From assembly GCA_012799155.1 (NCBI GenBank), contig JAAZLV010000114.1, forward strand, positions 1 to 14,956: a DNA stretch of 14,956 bases, written 5' to 3'. Shown piece by piece: positions 2,497 to 10,551 of the stretch. The notes under the pieces were generated by a model. It was not told the origin of the DNA, searched no databases, and saw nothing but the letters and a program-made list of their open reading frames with translations. The stretch is from Bacteroidales bacterium (GTDB lineage: Bacteria; Bacteroidota; Bacteroidia; Bacteroidales; Dysgonomonadaceae). The translations under genes and the position numbers were made by a program. Within the stretch, counting starts at the first letter, position 1. Every line of letters starts with the position of its first letter.

Positions 2497-2529
2497 AAAA
2501 AAAAACCTTTCTCACCGGGTGAGAAAGGT
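2497..2529 (-). terminator. Intrinsic terminator in the leuA leader (attenuator, regions 3:4)
   Basis: On the minus strand ACCTTTCTCACC (2529-2518) is exactly complementary to GGTGAGAAAGGT (2516-2505), separated by one C. Sterically this gives about 10 bp with a CCCGG loop. It is followed by nine consecutive T (2505-2497). It sits upstream of the leuA start inside the leader, so termination here would stop leuA transcription. No gene ends just upstream of it other than the leader peptide. Confidence 0.92.
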
Positions 2530-2581
2530 CATCTTATTCTTTATCTGCGTCAGTATACGATATGATATGCCAGTCTCACCC
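2517..2581 (-). promoter_or_regulatory. Candidate antiterminator pairing in the leuA leader (regions 2:3)
   Basis: GGGTGAGA (2581-2574), which includes the last codon and the stop codon of the leader peptide, is perfectly complementary over 8 nt to TCTCACCC (2524-2517), the 5' arm and loop of the terminator. The two pairings are mutually exclusive. A ribosome finishing the leader peptide would cover region 2 and let the terminator form. A ribosome stalled at the Leu run (2602-2594, 12 nt before region 2) would leave it free. The complementarity is seen directly; the mechanism is inferred from known amino-acid attenuators. Confidence 0.75.
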
Positions 2582-2638
2582 TCTGAAGTCTTCCAGAAGT
2601 AGAATAGAAATGACTAGAATATCAATATTGCGGATCAT
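2576..2638 (-). CDS. Leu/Ile/Val-rich leader peptide of the leuA operon
   Basis: A 20-residue open frame, MIRNIDILVISILLLEDFRG, from ATG 2638-2636 to TGA 2578-2576. Half of its residues are branched-chain amino acids: five Ile, four Leu and one Val, with three Leu codons in a row (CTA CTT CTG, 2602-2594). It starts about 28 nt after the predicted transcription start and lies between that promoter and the leader terminator. The peptide itself probably has no function. Its translation would report the supply of charged tRNA-Leu, and possibly tRNA-Ile and tRNA-Val. There is no Shine-Dalgarno sequence, as is usual in Bacteroidota. It is too short for ordinary gene calling. Confidence 0.85.
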   Translation of the reverse strand: MIRNIDILVISILLLEDFRG

Positions 2639-2671
2639 ACGACAGTTTCAATTTTTCTTGTTTGATGGTTG

Positions 2672-2702
2672 CAAAGTAAACCCAAAAAAATGAACCGGCA
2701 AA
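2672..2702 (-). promoter_or_regulatory. leuA operon promoter, Bacteroidota type
   Basis: On the minus strand the -33 element is TTTG (2702-2699), then a 19-nt spacer, then the -7 element TTACTTTG (2679-2672). The latter matches TAnnTTTG at all fixed positions but one. The expected transcription start is near 2665-2668, giving a leader of about 200 nt before leuA and about 28 nt before the leader peptide. Confidence 0.75.
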
Positions 2703-2878
2703 ATATTTCGTAATATTTTTTGCTTTTTTGTTTACACTTCGACAACCAGACACCTCTTTTTCTTCTCATTTAACACAACTAACGGACATAACACTACACA
2801 AAATCAAATCATTATACATTGTGACAACATTTTAGGCAACAAAGAGGACAAAGACGCTTAATTTCCTCAAAATTGGTT
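2703..2878. other. Divergent intergenic region between leuA and pabB promoters
   Basis: AT-rich DNA (with leuA leader and promoter, part of a 424-bp stretch without a long gene). Minus-strand TTTG-containing stretches occur around 2840-2855, but without a paired -7 box. No convincing operator, inverted repeat or small ORF was recognised here. It may hold regulator sites for either side that cannot be identified by eye. Confidence 0.5.
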
Positions 2879-2886
2879 TATTTTTG
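2879..2886 (+). promoter_or_regulatory. pabB promoter -7 box (TATTTTTG), possible leaderless start
   Basis: TATTTTTG is an exact match to the Bacteroidota -7 consensus TAnnTTTG. No good TTTG lies 19-21 bp upstream. The ATG of pabB starts at 2891, only four bases after the box, so transcription would begin at or within a few bases of the start codon. Confidence 0.55.
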
Positions 2887-2890
2887 CACC

Positions 2891-3871
2891 ATGTTCTACA
2901 AGAGCGAGGTGATCAGGCAAAAAATGAACGAAGCAGGGTGTGTGGGCATGCCTTTTCTTTTCGGAGTGACATTCGAGGGAGAGGAGGGTTTTTTTCTACC
3001 CCACCCGCTATCGCAGCAGGAGGTGATGTTCGATATCGGCGGGAAGGGCAATGCTCCACACCTACCGGATCATACTCCCTCATTCCGTTTTGAGTCGGAA
3101 CCCGAATCGTTTGCTACCTACCAAAGACGGTTTGAAACGGTGATGCAGGGTCTACACCGTGGCGACAGCTATCTCACCAACCTCACCATACGCACGCCAC
3201 TGCGCACGTCACTCACCCTTGATGAAGTCTTCCTGCATAGCAAAGCCCGCTACCGCCTACTGGTTCCCGGAAAATTTATTTGCTTTTCTCCCGAGCGCTT
3301 CGTCACCATGTATGAGGGACGCATCGCCACCTTCCCCATGAAGGGTACCATCGATGCCTCGCTGCCCGGAGCACGGGAGATCATCCTGAGCGATCCTAAG
3401 GAAACTGCAGAGCACAACACCACCGTCGACCTGCTGCGCAACGACCTGAGCAGAGTGGCAACGCAAGTCAATGTGAAACGCTTCCGCTACCTGGATAACG
3501 TGTGCACTAGCAAGGGGGAGATCCTTCAGGTGAGCTCCGAAATTGAGGGCATCCTCCCGGATCATTATCGGGAACAACTGGGCACCATCCTCTTCAAGCT
3601 GTTGCCGGCCGGCTCCGTGTCGGGGGCACCCAAGGAGGCGACCCTGCGACTGATTGGTGCGGCTGAAGGGGAGCCTCGCGGCTATTATTGCGGAGTGGCA
3701 GGCTACTACGACGGCGAGTCGCTCGACACCTTCGTGATCATACGCTACATCGAACAACGGGGAGAACATCTATTCTTCCGCAGTGGGGGGGGCATCACCG
3801 CCCAAAGCGACTGTCGGCGTGAGTACGACGAAGCGATACAGAAAGTATATTTACCTTTTCAATCCTCCTGA
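2891..3871 (+). CDS. pabB: Aminodeoxychorismate synthase component I (short PabB)
   Basis: With a PabA glutaminase (not in this window) it converts chorismate and glutamine-derived ammonia to 4-amino-4-deoxychorismate for p-aminobenzoate and folate. The 326 residues are nearly all chorismate-binding domain. TFPMKGTIDAS carries the PabB-type catalytic lysine (Lys151), where TrpE has an alanine. ETAEHNTTVDLLRNDLSRV (171-189), LPAGSVSGAPKEATLR (238-253) and RSGGGITAQSD (297-307) are the other family blocks. The N-terminal domain of full-length PabB/TrpE (about 450 residues) is absent, as in many short PabB proteins. A TTG six codons upstream (2873) is in frame, but it lies before the -7 box, so the ATG was chosen. 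It is the first gene of a pair with pabC, 4 bp apart. Confidence 0.93.
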   Translation: MFYKSEVIRQKMNEAGCVGMPFLFGVTFEGEEGFFLPHPLSQQEVMFDIGGKGNAPHLPDHTPSFRFESEPESFATYQRRFETVMQGLHRGDSYLTNLTIRTPLRTSLTLDEVFLHSKARYRLLVPGKFICFSPERFVTMYEGRIATFPMKGTIDASLPGAREIILSDPKETAEHNTTVDLLRNDLSRVATQVNVKRFRYLDNVCTSKGEILQVSSEIEGILPDHYREQLGTILFKLLPAGSVSGAPKEATLRLIGAAEGEPRGYYCGVAGYYDGESLDTFVIIRYIEQRGEHLFFRSGGGITAQSDCRREYDEAIQKVYLPFQSS

Positions 3872-3875
3872 CACC

Positions 3876-4463
3876 ATGTTCCTCGAATCGATCTGTATCA
3901 ACGACGGCCGGCCGGAGAACCTGGAGGCACACATCGAACGGATGCACCTTACAGCTCTGGAACACGGCTTCAGATTGCCGGTGCTGCCCACCATCGCATC
4001 AGTGTTGCCAAACAACCTCACCCAGGGTAAAGTGAAATGGCGCATCCTTTACAGGGAGGAGATACAAACCATGGAGTTTCTTCCCTACAAACCCAAAACA
4101 GTGCGATCGCTCCGGTTGGTGGAGGGCAATCCAGATTATACATTCAAGTATGCCGACCGGTCAGCTCTGGAGGATCTACTTACGCAGAAAGGAGATTGTG
4201 ATGAGATTCTGGTAGTCCGTGAGGGGTTGGTCACCGACACATCTTACAGCAATGTGGTGTTGCAGCAGGGAGATCAGTTCTACACCCCAACAAGCTATCT
4301 ACTCAACGGCACCCGCCGGCAGCAACTGCTTCGAAAGGGGAGCATCAAAGAAAGAGTCATCCAGGCAACCGATCTCCACCAATACGACCGCCTCCTGATG
4401 ATCAATGCACTGCTGAATTTGAATGATTCACCCTCCATCCCCATCCACAACATTCACTGGTAA
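3876..4463 (+). CDS. pabC: Aminodeoxychorismate lyase-like class IV aminotransferase
   Basis: A PLP enzyme expected to split aminodeoxychorismate into p-aminobenzoate and pyruvate. The 195 residues are shorter than typical PabC (about 270). The N-terminal GfgyGDGvFET region is reduced to MFLESICINDG, which aligns with the FET strand, followed by HIERMHLTAL. The likely PLP lysine is Lys91 in TFKYADRSAL. TDTSYSNVVL (120-129) matches the E-x-x-x-SN cofactor block, with Asp121 where most relatives have Glu. LNGTRRQQLL (143-152) matches the GxxR phosphate-binding turn. The open frame extends upstream into pabB (to 3783), but the ATG four bases after the pabB stop is the sensible start. Identity as PabC rather than a branched-chain aminotransferase rests on the pabB pairing. 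Confidence 0.85.
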   Translation: MFLESICINDGRPENLEAHIERMHLTALEHGFRLPVLPTIASVLPNNLTQGKVKWRILYREEIQTMEFLPYKPKTVRSLRLVEGNPDYTFKYADRSALEDLLTQKGDCDEILVVREGLVTDTSYSNVVLQQGDQFYTPTSYLLNGTRRQQLLRKGSIKERVIQATDLHQYDRLLMINALLNLNDSPSIPIHNIHW

Positions 4464-4570: not shown

Positions 4571-5845
4571 TTATCCGAAGTCATCAAACATGATCATCTC
4601 CGGCGGCACGCCCAGGTCGTCCAGCATACGCTGAACGGCTGCAGCCATTGGACCGGGACCACACATGTAGTACTCGATATCTTCGGGTGCGTCGTGATCC
4701 TTCAGGTAGGTATCGTGAATCACCTGGTGCACGAAGCCCGGGGTGTACTTCACGCCGGCGGCATCGGCTGCCGGGTCGGGACGGTCGAGTGCCAGGTGGA
4801 ACGAGAAGTTGGGAAACTCGCGTTCCAGTTCGTAGAAATCTTCAAGGTAGAAGGCTTCCACCAGTGCACGGGCACCGTAGAAGTAAGACATCTTCCGGTC
4901 AGTGATCTTGAGTGTCTTGGTGAGGTGCATGATTTGCGCACGGAGGGGAGCCATACCGGCACCACCGCCCACCCAGAGCATCTCGCGCTTGCTGTCGAGG
5001 ATGGGGTGGAAGTCACCGTAGGGACCCGACATCATCACCTTGTCGCCCGGTTTCAGGTTGAAGATATAGGAGGAGACAATACCCGGGTTGACATCCATCC
5101 AGCCTCCCTTGGCACGATCGAATGGAGGAGTTGCTACACGCACGTTGAGCATGATGACGTTCCCCTCGGCGGGATAGTTGGCCATGGAGTAAGCACGTAC
5201 CGTATCTTCCTCGTTTCTGGCAACCAGATCCCACATCTTGAACTTGTCCCACTCCGGCTTATATAGTTCATCAATCTGAAAATCGGCAAAACGAATCTGA
5301 TCGTACTTGGGTACTCTGATCTGGCTGTAGGACCCCGGCTTGAAGTCGAGCTTCTCACCTTCGGGCAGCTTCACCACGAACTCCTTGATGAACGATGCCA
5401 CGTTGTTGTTGGAGATCACCTCGCACTCCCATTCCTTGATGCCGAACACCTCTTCGGGGACGATGATCTTCATATCTTCCTTCACCTTCACCTGACAGCT
5501 CAGTCGCCAGTTGTTCATTTGCTCCTTACGGCTGAAATGACCTTTCTCGGTGGGGAGAATCTCACCGCCACCTTCAACTACACGACAACGGCACTGGGCG
5601 CAGGTGCCCCCGCCACCGCAGGCAGAAGAGAGGTAGATGTCCTGTGCCTGCAGGGTATTAAGCAGCGTGCTGCCCATCGGCACCTTCAGCTCTTTTTCTT
5701 CGTTCACGGTGATCTTGACGTTGCCCGAAGGCATCAGCTTCGCCTTTGCTACCAGGATGATCACTACCAGGACCAGAATGACCAGCAGGAATACGATGAC
5801 ACTCGCCCATATGGTCATTCCGCCCGCACTCAATAATACACTCAT
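4571..5845 (-). CDS. nqrF: Na+-translocating NADH:quinone reductase subunit F
   Basis: Electron entry subunit of Na+-NQR: it takes hydride from NADH onto FAD and passes electrons to a [2Fe-2S] cluster. 424 residues. One N-terminal membrane helix (about 12-33) anchors it. A plant-type ferredoxin domain follows, with Cys76, Cys82, Cys85 and Cys117 ([10 protein letters not shown], then LSCQV) as ligands. The flavodoxin-reductase part has RAYSMANYP (217-225, FAD), [10 protein letters not shown] (293-302, NADH) and MCGPGPM (394-400). It is the last gene of nqrABCDEF, 48 bp after nqrE. Some phenol hydroxylase and monooxygenase reductases look similar, but the membrane anchor and the operon settle the identity. 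Confidence 0.97.
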
Positions 5846-5893
5846 ACTTATGTATTTTATTTATTTCGTTACTTTGTTGCTAACTGTTGTGGA

Positions 5894-6508
5894 TTAAATA
5901 TTGATCCCGGAGAAGCTCATGAAGCCGATGGCCATCAGCGCCGTCACAATAAAGGTGATGCCCAGTCCCTTGAGCGGTTTGGGCACGTGCGAGTACTCCA
6001 GTTTCTCGCGTATGGCGGCCAGTCCCACGATGGCCAACAGCCAGCCAATACCTGAGCCAAAGGCATAAGAGGTAGCCAGACCAAGTGAGGCAAACTCGCG
6101 CTGTTGCATGAAGAGCGATCCACCAAGAATCGCACAGTTCACGGCGATCAGCGGCAGGAAGATGCCGAGTGAAGCATAGAGTGAGGGACTGAATTTTTCG
6201 ATGATCATCTCCACCAACTGTACGATGGAAGCGATAATGGCGATAAAGATCAGTAGACTGAAAACACTCAGATCCACGGCAGCATACTCTTCACCCAGCC
6301 AGGAGAGAGCTCCCGCCTTGAGCACATAGTTTTCCAGAAGATAATTGATGGGAAGGGTGATCACCAACACGAAGGTAACGGCGATACCAAGCCCCAGGGC
6401 AGTTTTCACATTCTTCGATACTGCCAGGAATGAACACATTCCCAGAAAGTATGCGAATATCATGTTGTCGACGAAGATCGACCTTACAATCAGACTAATT
6501 GCATCCAT
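5894..6508 (-). CDS. nqrE: Na+-translocating NADH:quinone reductase subunit E
   Basis: Integral membrane subunit of Na+-NQR, paired with NqrD in an inverted-topology arrangement. 204 residues, with about six hydrophobic segments. The two conserved cysteines are present (Cys25 in [10 protein letters not shown] and Cys125 in AVNCAILGG). In Vibrio NQR structures the NqrD and NqrE cysteines bind an intramembrane [2Fe-2S] cluster. The start [20 protein letters not shown] is typical of the family. It is 25 bp after nqrD. RnfA is the close paralogue, but the complete nqr gene order excludes Rnf. Confidence 0.96.
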
Positions 6509-6533
6509 ATTAATAGTCGTTAATCAGTTTCAG

Positions 6534-7166
6534 TTAATTGGTTTCTTCCTGCAAGTCCTTGTTGCGGGCCCTGTGCACCCAGATGATCACTGCCACCAGG
6601 ATCAGCGCCATCGGGGCCAGCATCATCAAACCGTTGTTCTCATATCCGGCATCATACATGAATTGTGGGATTACCTTATAACCCAATAATTCACCTGAAC
6701 CGAGCAATTCACGGAAGAAGCCTACAACTACCAGGATCCAACCATAACCCAATCCATTGCCGATACCGTCGAGGAAGGAGGGCCAGGGGCCGTTACCGAG
6801 GGCAAACGCCTCAAGGCGTCCCATCAGGATACAGTTGGTCACAATCAGTCCCACGAACACCGAAAGCTGCTTGTTCACATCATAGGCAAAGGCTTTGAGC
6901 ACCTCGCTCACGATGGTTACCAGAGCAGCCACAACCACCAGCTGTACGATGATGCGGATACGTGTGGGAATGGTTTTGCGCAACAATGAGATAATCACAT
7001 TGCCGAAAGCTGTCACCAAGGTTACGGCTACAGCCATCACCAGCGAAGGTTCCAATTTGGAGGTCACTGCCAGTGCGGAGCAGATACCGAGCACCTGCAC
7101 GATTACCGGGTTGTTTTTGTTCAACGGTCCCAGCAAGACCGCTTTTGTTTGATTCGATAATGCCAT
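6534..7166 (-). CDS. nqrD: Na+-translocating NADH:quinone reductase subunit D
   Basis: Membrane subunit homologous to NqrE and RnfE. 210 residues, with a hydrophobic profile of about six helices. The cysteines that share the intramembrane Fe-S cluster with NqrE are at Cys29 (VLGICSALAV) and Cys112 (IVTNCILMGRLEAFA). The segment LEAFALGNGPWPSFLDGIGNG is typical of the NqrD/RnfE family. The ATG at 7166 follows nqrC by 27 bp. Membrane-located; it takes part in the electron path coupled to Na+ transport. Confidence 0.96.
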   Translation of the reverse strand: MALSNQTKAVLLGPLNKNNPVIVQVLGICSALAVTSKLEPSLVMAVAVTLVTAFGNVIISLLRKTIPTRIRIIVQLVVVAALVTIVSEVLKAFAYDVNKQLSVFVGLIVTNCILMGRLEAFALGNGPWPSFLDGIGNGLGYGWILVVVGFFRELLGSGELLGYKVIPQFMYDAGYENNGLMMLAPMALILVAVIIWVHRARNKDLQEETN

Positions 7167-7193
7167 ATTCTTACTCTTTTATGTAGACTGACC

Positions 7194-7904
7194 CTATTGG
7201 GCAGCGTTCAGATTCAACAAAAATTTACTGTATTGCCCCACACTGTTCAGCAGCATGGCATCCACTCCCTTACTGGTAATGGTACCGCCAGAGATACCAT
7301 CAACATAGTCGCGGTCGGATGTTGCCTGACCAGGCTTTACCACCGCTACCGAGCGGAAGTGACCTTCCTTGATCAGCTCCTTGCCAATAAACTGTTCTCG
7401 GAAGGAGAGCATTACAATCTCTGCTCCTAGCCCCGGAGTTTCCCCCTGGTGTCCAAACTCCGATCCGTAGATGGTACTGCCATCGGCTTCCACAGCCAGG
7501 TAACCCCAGATAGGGCCCCAGAGTCCGGTACCCTGCATAGGAATAATGTATTTTTGTGATCCCTCTACTATTGCTTCAAATACTGGCAATCCGGCAGCCG
7601 CCTCATCACTTGGATCGATGGAAAATGCGGGGTCATTGGGTGTTGTACCCTCGCTGCCCTCCACCTTCACCCCATCGGGAGTGATCAGGTAGGCGTTCTG
7701 TACCAGCTCATCATACACCTGTTGTGCTTCGGCAGCAGAGGCATTAATGTTGAGCGAGCGCAGGATCTGCTGCATCTTGTCGATGTTCACGTTGGCAGTC
7801 TGCCGGTCACTCAGGGCCTGATGCGTGAATGCCAGCCCCAGTGCGACAAGGATTACCATCACAGCTGCGTATATTATCGTGTATCCACTGTTTTCTCTGT
7901 TCAT
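7194..7904 (-). CDS. nqrC: Na+-translocating NADH:quinone reductase subunit C (covalent FMN subunit)
   Basis: Carries a covalently bound FMN on the periplasmic side of Na+-NQR. 236 residues: a short N-terminus, one membrane helix (about residues 8-27), then a soluble FMN-binding domain with GHQGETPGLGAEIV and, near the end, GISGGTITSKGVDAML. The flavinylated threonine is expected to be Thr208 in SGGT, which differs from the commoner SGAT by Gly for Ala. The frame is open to a TTG six codons upstream (7922), but the ATG at 7904 gives the normal start MNRENSGYTIIYAAVMV. Flavin transfer needs ApbE, which is not in this window. Spacing to nqrB is 43 bp. Confidence 0.95.
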   Translation of the reverse strand: MNRENSGYTIIYAAVMVILVALGLAFTHQALSDRQTANVNIDKMQQILRSLNINASAAEAQQVYDELVQNAYLITPDGVKVEGSEGTTPNDPAFSIDPSDEAAAGLPVFEAIVEGSQKYIIPMQGTGLWGPIWGYLAVEADGSTIYGSEFGHQGETPGLGAEIVMLSFREQFIGKELIKEGHFRSVAVVKPGQATSDRDYVDGISGGTITSKGVDAMLLNSVGQYSKFLLNLNAAQ

Positions 7905-7947
7905 ATCGTTTGATTTATGCAATCTTGATGCGTTTCTGTTTCAGTCA

Positions 7948-9162
7948 TTAACCTTTTAATGATGCGGTTGCACGTTTCGCACGCCGTTTGATGTTGGCAT
8001 CGATCACGTAGAAGTCGATGAGCGGTGCAAAGGCGTTGATCAGCAGGATCGCCAGCATCATTCCTTCCGGGTAACCCGGGTTGAAGACACGGATGGCAAC
8101 CGCTACCAGCCCAATCAGGAATCCAAAGATCCACTTACCTTTCTCCGTGCGGGCCGATGTCACCGGGTCGGTAGCCATGAAGACGGCACCGAAGGCAAAG
8201 CCACCCAGCAGGAAGTGATAGTAGAAGGGCATATCCATCATTGCATTCTGTGCGAATGAATTTACCAGCAGGACACCCACTGCACCACCCACGAAGACGG
8301 AGAGCATTGTCTTCCAACTGCCCACGCCGGTGGCAATCAGAATCAGCGCACCTAGGAGGATTGCGAAAGTGGATACCTCACCCACCGATCCGGGGATGAA
8401 TCCGAAGAACATGTCACTGATGGAAAGGGGATTGCCGGTAATGCCGTGGAAGGTGAACTCACTGAAGCTGCCTGCATCGGTGGTAGCAATCTGTCCCAAT
8501 GGTGTGGCACCGGAATATCCGTCTATCACGGTTCCCTTACCCATTCCGAAGGTGTCTGCTGTGCGAACCCAAACCTGGTCGCCCGACATCTTGGTGGGAT
8601 AGGAGAAGAAGAGGAAGGCACGCGCGATGAGTGCCACGTTGAAAATGTTGTAACCGGTTCCACCGAACACTTCCTTGGCGAATATCACCGAGAAGGCAGT
8701 GGCTACGGCGACCATCCAGAGGGGTGTATCAATGGGCACGATCATCGGGATCAGCATTCCGGATACAAGAAACCCTTCGGCAACTTCTTCCTTTTTTACC
8801 TGAGCCATGGCAAACTCAATGCCGAGACCCACCACGTAAGAGACTACGATCAGCGGTAACATGGCGATCAGTCCGTAGAGGAAGGTATTGAGCAGCGACA
8901 TCTCCTGCCCGATGGCCATATAGTGTTGCAGCCCCACATTGTACATACCCACCAGCAGTGCCGGCACCAGGGCCAGGATCACGATGATCATGGTGCGCTT
9001 GGAGTCACGCGCATCATGGATATGTACACCCGTCCTTGAAGTGGTGTTGGGTACAAACAGAAACGTCTCAAACGCATCGTATGTGGAATAGAGCCAATGC
9101 AGCTTACCCCCCTCTTCGAAATTGGGCTTTATCTTGTCAAGATAGTTTTTTAACGCTTTCAA
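7948..9162 (-). CDS. nqrB: Na+-translocating NADH:quinone reductase subunit B (covalent FMN, TTG start)
   Basis: Largest membrane subunit of Na+-NQR, which holds FMN, riboflavin and quinone-related sites and the sodium path. 404 residues with about ten hydrophobic segments. The flavinylation motif DGYSGATPLGQ is intact, with Thr220 as the FMN attachment residue by homology to Vibrio Thr236. The N-terminus KALKNYLDKIKPNFEEGGKLHWLYSTYDA aligns in pattern with the usual start, and the codon there is TTG (9162-9160). No in-frame ATG lies nearby upstream, and the next ATG is over 50 codons in. nqrA ends 42 bp before it. The spacer is A-rich; the AGGAGG next to the nqrA stop is too distant to serve this start. 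Confidence 0.95.
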   Translation of the reverse strand: MKALKNYLDKIKPNFEEGGKLHWLYSTYDAFETFLFVPNTTSRTGVHIHDARDSKRTMIIVILALVPALLVGMYNVGLQHYMAIGQEMSLLNTFLYGLIAMLPLIVVSYVVGLGIEFAMAQVKKEEVAEGFLVSGMLIPMIVPIDTPLWMVAVATAFSVIFAKEVFGGTGYNIFNVALIARAFLFFSYPTKMSGDQVWVRTADTFGMGKGTVIDGYSGATPLGQIATTDAGSFSEFTFHGITGNPLSISDMFFGFIPGSVGEVSTFAILLGALILIATGVGSWKTMLSVFVGGAVGVLLVNSFAQNAMMDMPFYYHFLLGGFAFGAVFMATDPVTSARTEKGKWIFGFLIGLVAVAIRVFNPGYPEGMMLAILLINAFAPLIDFYVIDANIKRRAKRATASLKG

Positions 9163-9204
9163 AGTTCTATGTTTTAGTAGTTATTATTATTTGATTCCCT
9201 CCTG

Positions 9205-10551
9205 TTACTCCATCTCCTTGCGAAGCATGTCGAGACCGGTGCGGACAATATGTTGTAGCTCCAGCTTGGAGGTGTCTACAAACTCACAGAGTGCAAAATC
9301 CTCCGGAGCCACCTCATAGATGCCCAGAGCCTCCATCTTGTCGATATTGAAGGCGATGATCGCCTTGATCAACTGTTCGGGATAGATATCCATTGGGAAC
9401 ACCTTGTCATACTCGTTGGAGACTATGATTGCACGAGGACCACCCAGCATACGGGCATCCATCCGATAGGCTTTCTTCAGAGTGGGATAGGTGCAACCGG
9501 CACTGTAACGCTTGGGCGAGAGCGATGCCCAGCCAAACGCCTCATGCACGTCATCCCCTTCGGGAATGACCGTCACCTGCGAGTGACCTGCACGCAGGAC
9601 ACCATCGGCATCGATCTTCTTACCGGTGAGCGGGTTGCCGCTGATATAGCGTAGTGAAATTCCCTCGGTCACATTGTTCAGGAAGAGCTGCTTCAGTTGT
9701 GTACCAATCACCATCTTCCAGTAGCCGGTCTGCTTCACTTCAGAGCCCGTAAGAGCTACGGTGCGTGTCAGATCTACGATTCCTGTGTTGAAGAGGTGGC
9801 CGATGATGGCTACATCGAGAGCGGTAAGTGTCCATACGGTCTCACCGCGGTTCACCGGTTTGAGGCGGTTAATCTGCACACCCACGTTACCAGCTGGATG
9901 AGGACCGTCAAACTCATTGATCACAACGTTTTTCGCCTCACGAAGACCCTTGTTGCTGCTCTTAGGGCTGATGGACAGGAAGACCTTTCCGGCAGTAAGC
10001 TTTGCCAGCGCATCGAAACCGGCCTGCAGATCTGCCTCACGGTTCTGCAGCAGAAAATCATAGCTGGGAGCCAGTGGAGCGCTATCGAAACCGGTAACGA
10101 AGATATCGCGTGGTGCCTTGCCGGGAACAGCTACCACATCATATGGGCGTTGTTTGATCAGGAACCAGATGCCTGCATCGAGGATTGTCTTCTTCACCTC
10201 CTCACCCGAGAGAGTGGCCGGTTTCTTGCTGCCGAAATCAACGTAGTCGGTGGTTTTATCGGCCTTCACCTCGATGTAGAGGATACGGCGTTTCTCACCA
10301 CGTTCTATGTTGGTTACCACACCGCTTACCGGTGAGGCAAAAAGCATTTCAGGATGGTTCTTATCGTAAAAGAGCGGTGCACCGGCTTTCACGTTATCCC
10401 CCGCCCTTACGGATAACTTGGGAGTGATGCCCTGATAATCTTCGGGACAAATCCGCACCAACTCGCTTGTCACGGTGCCGCGCAGTGTCTCCTCACACTC
10501 ACCCAACAAAGGGATCCGTAAGCCTTTCTTAATTTTAATTCGATTAGCCAT
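9205..10551 (-). CDS. nqrA: Na+-translocating NADH:quinone reductase subunit A
   Basis: Cytoplasmic, cofactor-free subunit that in Vibrio contacts the quinone site at the NqrA/NqrB interface. 448 residues, the family length. It begins MANRIKIKKGLRIPLLGE. The barrel-like N-terminal part (about 30-110) includes KAGAPLFYDKNHPEMLFASPVSG. The central part has FVTGFDSAPLAPSYDFLLQ. The C-terminal part has RMLGGPRAIIVSNEYDKVFPMDIYPEQL and the helical end ELQHIVRTGLDMLRKEME. First gene of the six-gene operon, with an ATG at 10551. A strong -7 box lies about 110 bp upstream, giving a long 5' UTR. Confidence 0.96.
   Translation of the reverse strand: MANRIKIKKGLRIPLLGECEETLRGTVTSELVRICPEDYQGITPKLSVRAGDNVKAGAPLFYDKNHPEMLFASPVSGVVTNIERGEKRRILYIEVKADKTTDYVDFGSKKPATLSGEEVKKTILDAGIWFLIKQRPYDVVAVPGKAPRDIFVTGFDSAPLAPSYDFLLQNREADLQAGFDALAKLTAGKVFLSISPKSSNKGLREAKNVVINEFDGPHPAGNVGVQINRLKPVNRGETVWTLTALDVAIIGHLFNTGIVDLTRTVALTGSEVKQTGYWKMVIGTQLKQLFLNNVTEGISLRYISGNPLTGKKIDADGVLRAGHSQVTVIPEGDDVHEAFGWASLSPKRYSAGCTYPTLKKAYRMDARMLGGPRAIIVSNEYDKVFPMDIYPEQLIKAIIAFNIDKMEALGIYEVAPEDFALCEFVDTSKLELQHIVRTGLDMLRKEME

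Follow-up and report, generated by a model that had tools for sequence, protein, structure and literature searches.

A probable ribosome-mediated attenuator ahead of the branched-chain amino acid genes of Bacteroidales

The window, that is, the whole 14,956-nucleotide stretch analyzed here, comes from a Bacteroidales bacterium of the Dysgonomonadaceae (assembly GCA_012799155.1, contig JAAZLV010000114.1) and carries on its minus strand leuA, encoding 2-isopropylmalate synthase (positions 982 to 2466; NCBIfam TIGR00973, 661.8 bits against a cutoff of 598.7), and leuC (positions 2 to 928), which runs past the window edge and whose homolog in a relative (G024; L112, 5552 to 6934) scores above the leuC cutoff. 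The divergent neighbor of leuA is a plus-strand gene for aminodeoxychorismate synthase component I (2873 to 3871), which is overlapped by a small plus-strand gene (3783 to 4463) without an NCBIfam match at an E value of 1e-10 or below. Six further genes on the minus strand (4571 to 10551) resemble, by eye, an operon for the Na+-translocating NADH:quinone reductase (nqr).

The leader elements, given here in window numbering, all lie on the minus strand upstream of leuA, the first structural gene. A promoter, recognized by motif only, spans positions 2672 to 2702 and consists of TTTG (2702 to 2699), a 19-nucleotide spacer, and TTACTTTG (2679 to 2672), which on direct reading is one base off TAnnTTTG, the form given for the -7 box in PMC9723704. 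Matches from a scan for sigma-70-type promoters were dropped because this is not the appropriate type of promoter and their number was close to chance expectation (three found versus 1.7 expected). Downstream of the promoter is an open reading frame (2576 to 2638) for the 20-codon leader peptide MIRNIDILVISILLLEDFRG, with five Ile, four Leu, and one Val. Codons 6 to 9 constitute segment 1 (GATATTCTAGTC, 2612 to 2623), the 5' strand of a helix in which 11 of 12 positions pair with GACTGGCATATC (2564 to 2575). RNA folding places inside this helix (2623 to 2612 with 2575 to 2564) both a small hairpin (2580 to 2599), with the arms CTTCTGGA (2599 to 2592) and TTCAGAGG (2587 to 2580), and the antiterminator half. 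The latter is segment 2, GGGTGAGA (2574 to 2581), which has the TGA stop codon of the leader inside it and is complementary to segment 3, TCTCACCC (2524 to 2517), in the 5' arm and loop of a terminator; the last two C residues of segment 3 fall in the loop. The intrinsic terminator, segment 3:4, reads GACCTTTCTCAC(CCG)GTGAGAAAGGTT followed by nine T residues (2497 to 2530; stem, 2530 to 2519 with 2515 to 2504; T run, 2505 to 2497). The Leu run ends at position 2594, 12 nucleotides ahead of GGGTGAGA.

The first-pass annotation had described the promoter, the peptide, the 8-nucleotide antiterminator half at the stop codon, the terminator, and the T run correctly base for base, and its distance of 12 nucleotides between the Leu run and the antiterminator half is likewise borne out. 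Absent from that account were the small hairpin and the helix 1:2, which is the segment 1:2 of the classical attenuator scheme. The locus offers a putative promoter upstream of a short reading frame rich in codons for the amino acids of the pathway and a predicted intrinsic terminator between that frame and the first structural gene. A comparable reading frame (ATG start, 12 to 40 codons, at least 50% Leu/Ile/Val, and at least 10 of these residues) arose in 8 of 5,000 dinucleotide shuffles of the leader, and in 20 of 2,000 when GTG and TTG starts were allowed. The fold of the leader RNA including the terminator was better than that of 200 of 200 shuffles (z = -3.44); when the leader was cut before the 3' arm of the terminator, this was no longer so (z = -0.69, with 49 of 200 as good). 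A chance origin of the leader is implausible because the leader is conserved in relatives.

Conservation was assessed at leuA loci from two sources, namely, relatives of the window's genome, among which 50 of 61 genomes had a match, giving 30 loci including the window's own, and the best 80 of the matches listed among named genome contigs, mostly from Bacteroidales and with the near relatives labeled Proteiniphilum. From 111 loci, a paralogue (L002) and three loci that over the aligned leader region were identical to others (L032 to L034, identical to L006, L011, and L010, respectively) were left out, leaving 107. A fixed rule called for a leader tail no longer than 26 residues in which 7 or more were Leu/Ile/Val and accounted for 30% or more of the tail, a terminator arm containing CTT, and an antiterminator complement of 6 or more. 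This combination of a branched-chain amino acid (BCAA) reading frame, a complementary antiterminator, and a terminator was found in 83 of the 107 leuA upstream regions, including all 32 of the genus group (30 from the genus itself plus two from named metagenome-assembled genomes at 88% identity) and 51 of the 75 others. The BCAA-rich mini-ORFs that the first-pass annotation had proposed to look for in related Bacteroidales thus recur. As examples, Bacteroides fragilis has the leader MNQSFIHILLCGIIILLAKVGGSECRA with GGAAGTGAG and CTCACTTCC, and a Dysgonomonas locus has the leader MKLFTNILSSIILLWENLRVSSAA. The remaining 24 regions failed the rule; some of them appear by eye to be failures of the rule itself, such as L037, where the BCAA-rich frame is kept and the TGA is lost, and L044 and L099, which have leader-like reading frames. 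At others of the 24, such as two Salinivirgaceae loci (L085 and L091) and one Muribaculaceae locus (L105), a terminator scan found none.

The promoter motif is retained as well. The pattern TTTG-N17..22-T[AT]NNTTTG was present at 78 of the 82 qualifying loci with sufficient upstream sequence, compared with a mean of 2.2 and a maximum of 6 in 100 dinucleotide shuffles, and the stricter pattern TANNTTTG was present at 52 of the 82. An RNA model built from a 64-locus alignment (A2, below) recovered the full-length leader, with E values under 1e-14, in 22 of the 25 genus genomes, including the window's own, with matches at the A2 loci arising by construction since the model was built from them. 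The three genomes missed are 59 to 76% complete; two contain no LeuA match (G014 and G021), and one contains only a distant paralogue (G019). Beyond the order, where 91 other genomes had a match, 29 loci from other orders and classes were inspected, and none of these had a recognizable leader directly before leuA; four of them (L121, L123, L126, and L142) had a terminator-like hairpin but lacked such a reading frame. The evidence from relatives raises an attenuator from plausible to very likely.

The reading frame and the codon usage of the leader likewise speak for an attenuator. The distance from TATTCTA to GGTGAGA in the 32 genus-group loci is 41 in 26 loci, 44 in 4, 47 in 1, and 42 in 1. 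The frame is kept by the insertions of 3 and 6, and the single extra base, in L035, sits behind the BCAA run. The spacer behind the leader occurs in nine different lengths; of 19 departures from the modal length, 13 are not divisible by 3. Among relatives, the peptide is variable at its N and C termini but retains the BCAA run with its spacing. The codon CTA supplies two of the four Leu codons in the leader versus 21 of 435 in the genes of the window. In the Salmonella leu attenuator, the control codon is reported to be CUA, and swapping CUA for CUG lowered sensitivity (PMC1183508). The first CTA of the leader also lies within segment 1, and pairing may constrain that codon too.

Base pairing was examined in two alignments, A1, comprising 33 of the loci L001 to L037, and A2, made with MAFFT from 64 loci of the folding set described below (only 15 of the 32 genus loci were taken, so as to keep redundancy low, along with 49 others, and two duplicates were dropped). 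In the genus alignment, where alone covariation of helix 1:2 was examined, 97.7 to 99.0% of the cells of this helix were paired and two pairs had changed on both sides; helix 1:2, the small hairpin, and the terminator taken jointly were 98.7% paired, with five double changes versus 0.7 in shuffles. The antiterminator stem was 97.0% paired and nearly invariant within the genus, with no double changes, so that covariation is uninformative at this depth. Across the 64 loci of A2, the antiterminator was 88.6% paired with 28 double-changed cells versus 7.2 in shuffles (reached by 0 of 500), and slid registers gave at most 15. At column pair 111:183, for example, A-U is replaced by G-C, and at 113:181 U-A is replaced by C-G. 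Double changes fell on six of the nine antiterminator pairs, compared with 3.5 in shuffles, a number equaled by 20 of 500. The terminator was 94.1% paired with 52 double-changed cells versus 16.1 (0 of 500 shuffles). Loci were admitted to A2 with a complement and a terminator already found, which favors high pairing counts, and the shuffles leave relatedness in place among loci that are not independent, so these counts are not probabilities. In a permutation over 86 loci with 52 distinct arms (L074 and L110 included), a locus's own terminator arm fit its leader better than the arms of others did (19.6 versus 16.2; standard deviation, 0.40; 0 of 5,000). The covariation of stems 2:3 and 3:4 that the first-pass annotation had named as a second check is therefore found in the 64-locus alignment, with 2:3 hardly varying within the genus. 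The wide alignment, as distinct from that of the genus, argues for a mutually exclusive antiterminator that shares the 5' arm of the terminator and has been kept through covariation.

Whether these parts could work as a switch was modeled by folding each leader with the bases under an assumed ribosome footprint, reaching from roughly -14 to +15 relative to the P site, held unpaired. The folding set consisted of 83 loci and differed from the 83 meeting the rule in that L099 was included and L084 was not; L037, L074, and L110 were excluded by hand. At full length and at equilibrium, a stall position favoring the antiterminator was found in only 21 of the 83 loci; in the window, A-site positions 12 to 14 favored it when this locus was folded singly, and 11 to 14 in the run over all loci. 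The switch must consequently be kinetic in most loci. Classical attenuation systems are kinetic switches, and folding of a transcript cut where segment 3 ends, which was run on all loci after the equilibrium result, is, we think, a better picture of such a switch than full-length equilibrium.

With the cut transcript, the antiterminator of the window formed with a probability of 1.0 at every A-site position tried from codon 3 to 16 and was lost (0.003 or below) for A sites from codon 17 to the stop. A stop codon in the A site turned the antiterminator off in 82 of the 83 loci. Leu, Ile, and Val made up 659 of 1,118 codons at which the antiterminator was on versus 149 of 712 at which it was off; with two alternative footprints, the shares were 57 to 58% and 20 to 24%, and the stop turned the antiterminator off in 77 and 82 of 83 loci. 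In 68 of 83 loci, the last "on" codon was no more than two codons away from the end of the BCAA run, defined by the final Leu/Ile/Val pair ahead of the antiterminator; the switch point was farther away in 14, and in L101 the antiterminator never formed. Counting against the model, the ribosome-free cut transcript favored the antiterminator in 32 of 83 loci, including the window (probability, 0.96). In this model, a stall at the regulatory codons would leave segment 2 free, and a ribosome at the stop codon would cover it.

Taken together, these observations lead us to assign a probability of about 90% to the leader being a ribosome-mediated (leader-peptide) transcription attenuator of an operon for isoleucine, leucine, and valine biosynthesis. 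The features by which such an attenuator can be recognized from sequence all appear to be present, with a reservation over full-length folding. In the mechanism we infer, which covers the transcript, the stalling, and the regulation with its direction, plentiful BCAA-tRNAs would allow the ribosome to reach the TGA stop and sit on GGGTGAGA, leaving TCTCACCC free, so that the terminator would fold and transcription would end near position 2497. If charged Leu tRNA (or that for Ile or Val) were short, the ribosome would stall within the Ile-Leu-Leu-Leu run and cover segment 1; GGGTGAGA would then stay open and pair with TCTCACCC, disrupting the terminator and allowing RNA polymerase to enter leuA and the downstream genes. 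Helix 1:2 could serve to restrain the antiterminator half.

The genes behind leuA fit the composition of the peptide. The genome of the window (G000) is 85% complete and lies in 444 contigs, with leuA and leuC on the window's contig and leuD, a second synthase gene, leuB, and ilvD on another (C123). In G024, a near-complete genome in three contigs whose LeuA is 99% identical to that of the window, leuA-leuC-leuD-cimA-leuB-ilvD-ilvB-ilvH-ilvC stand consecutively on one strand; here leuA, leuB, leuC, leuD, and ilvD score above the NCBIfam cutoffs, and ilvB, ilvH, and ilvC were named by eye from sequence. The second synthase is likely cimA, its best match being the citramalate synthase (CimA) model at 656.8 bits, under the cutoff of 950, and its product would feed isoleucine. 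This row of genes covers the synthesis of all three BCAAs, which explains why the peptide mixes Ile (five residues), Leu (four), and Val (one). Judging by the full row in G024, the candidate operon would make the very amino acids that its leader is predicted to sense. Of the first-pass reading of a leucine attenuator, the attenuator stands, and leucine alone is too narrow, the gene row pointing to BCAA (ilv-leu) control; the hint in the same account that more than leucine is sensed gains support from the leu and ilv content of the operon in G024.

A terminator-like site is also what would be expected if the hairpin simply terminated transcription or formed the 3' end of a small RNA, with the mini-ORF present by coincidence, and small RNAs and RNAs derived from 5' untranslated regions are described for Bacteroides thetaiotaomicron (PMC7366714). 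That explanation is very improbable: the gene upstream (2873 to 3871) is divergent, so there is no same-strand upstream gene needing a terminator, and the BCAA codons, the frame, and the antiterminator complement are all conserved. Slightly less probable again is that a small-molecule riboswitch or a T-box, a tRNA-binding leader, governs the terminator and the reading frame is a mere marker. A structured leader and a terminator before a BCAA operon are the layout of a T-box too, but the structure is built around the reading frame, with the stop codon within segment 2, and the T-box covariance model was not matched by the leader. No family of Rfam 15 reached its gathering score in the window, nor did any at the loci of ten relatives except for two rRNA matches in L053; at an E value of 5 or below, the leader region gave ten subthreshold matches with no T-box among them. 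The Rfam leader families (Leu_leader, Phe_leader, and others) were not matched at threshold, and the one leader-peptide family among the weak matches was Phe_leader, which scored 16.4 bits where the gathering score is 55. Least credible is a trans-acting small protein with attenuation as a secondary effect, for although leader peptides with roles in trans exist, such as peTrpL (PMC7298713), relatives preserve the BCAA run of this peptide with its spacing while differing at both ends of it.

The RNA model of the leuA leader also led to other operons. Twenty-eight regions among the further matches of the RNA model were examined, with downstream genes named by eye except for hisG in five genomes. 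The E values of the leaders found ranged from 3e-9 (L164) to 0.22 (L191), so several of them rest on peptide and gene and not on model score. Ten regions (L173, L177 to L179, L181 to L183, L186, L189, and L190) had no amino acid leader and were taken as chance matches. One match (L167; E value, 7e-5) has a short reading frame and a terminator ahead of a gene that by eye resembles gltB, and no clear control codons. Leader peptides rich in Val, Ile, and Leu precede ilvD in other families of the order (L164, L165, L166, L169, and L185) and suggest a second BCAA attenuator, i.e., one where ilv stands as a separate unit; the antiterminator complements of the two loci tested, L164 and L165, were matched by 8 and 48 of 1,000 letter shuffles. 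A His leader with an HHHH run and a terminator lie upstream of hisG at L170, found by the model, at L223, L225, and L226, and, by eye, at L224, and direct inspection of the window's own genome revealed the His leader MKANKFHHHHFHTCNQAS and a terminator before hisG (contig C28, L227). Two his antiterminator complements were matched by 35 and 32 of 1,000 letter shuffles.

A conserved leader peptide, NGYWWR(Y/F/C)L, precedes trpB-trpE in the genus (L171, L172, L174 to L176, L180, L184, L188, L191, and L222), the set consisting of nine same-genus loci and G024, found by pattern; a simple test of one case, L222, gave no antiterminator complement, with 983 of 1,000 shuffles as good. Upstream of pheA at L168 are the Phe/Tyr-rich leader FLFTYTNFYYFWFF and an 8-nucleotide antiterminator complement matched by 1 of 1,000 letter shuffles. 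The genes metY-metX are preceded at L187/L192, which are the same place, by the Met leader MKLNKNMMMSMMMSKEIYAKDIII, a terminator, and a second Met leader, MRFINNNTNSMMMGMMQMMMHIMLLYYPD; L193 has two tandem Met leaders, the second with fewer Met residues, and L194 has one. Each of these Met-rich leaders (MMMSMMM and similar; L192, L193, and L194) has a terminator and a complementary stretch behind it, weak in L194, and shuffles were as good in 2, 12, 14, 14, and 125 of 1,000 cases for the two complements of L192, the two of L193, and that of L194. Among the best 30 metY loci, from 92 genomes with a match, a clear Met-run leader was present in only these three. The Met leaders are possible Met-sensing attenuators. 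On balance we lean, by a modest margin, toward the view that Bacteroidales make wide use of a set of ribosome-mediated attenuators for amino acid operons, the leuA leader among them, which respond to BCAAs (leuA), Val/Ile (ilvD), His (hisG), Trp (trpB-trpE), Phe (pheA), and, as a new case, methionine (metY-metX).

In the Bacteroidales, which figure prominently among gut and anaerobic bacteria, the leader provides a defined, testable control point for the entire BCAA pathway in the form of an RNA element that matches no family of Rfam release 15 at threshold. Attenuation requires a ribosome close behind RNA polymerase, and conservation of the leader therefore predicts coupled transcription and translation, a matter that, to our knowledge, is not settled for the phylum Bacteroidota. 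Should the wider set of attenuators be real, tight coupling would be required in Bacteroidales, and methionine would be added to the amino acids sensed through ribosome stalling.

Attenuators of this kind are already known, and they have been proposed elsewhere in the phylum. Lopatovskaya, Seliverstov, and Lyubetsky reportedly predicted attenuation in 2010 for amino acid operons in many groups, reportedly with Bacteroidetes/Chlorobi among them. The first-pass annotation had likened the locus to the enteric leu/ilv leaders, and the layout is indeed the same. The leuL and ilvL leaders of Escherichia coli and Salmonella share with it a BCAA-rich peptide, the alternative helices 1:2, 2:3, and 3:4, and a terminator before BCAA genes, and the Salmonella leu attenuator has CUA control codons as well (PMC1183508). 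The leader described here differs from the enteric ones in lacking an Rfam family at threshold, in its peptide, in having the stop codon inside segment 2, in its Bacteroidota-type promoter, and in standing as a single leader before a joint leu and ilv gene row. In Corynebacterium glutamicum, alternative hairpins are likewise proposed to attenuate a BCAA operon, ilvBNC; the likeness is one of description, the organism belongs to the Actinobacteria, and the operon is a different one (PMC11857589). Within the phylum, long 5' untranslated regions of B. thetaiotaomicron are described as holding short reading frames that resemble leader peptides (PMC7366714). For Flavobacterium psychrophilum, "strong clues" are reported for leader-peptide attenuation before amino acid operons, together with conserved 5' elements before pheA and hisG that had no Rfam match; this organism is a flavobacterium, and the main text of that report contains neither "leuA" nor "ilv" (PMC9723704). 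Among the literature matches listed, by title and abstract opening, none concerned this leuA leader or a methionine leader peptide. As far as these listings go, what appears to be new beside the systems above is this BCAA leader itself, with its wide conservation and covariation.
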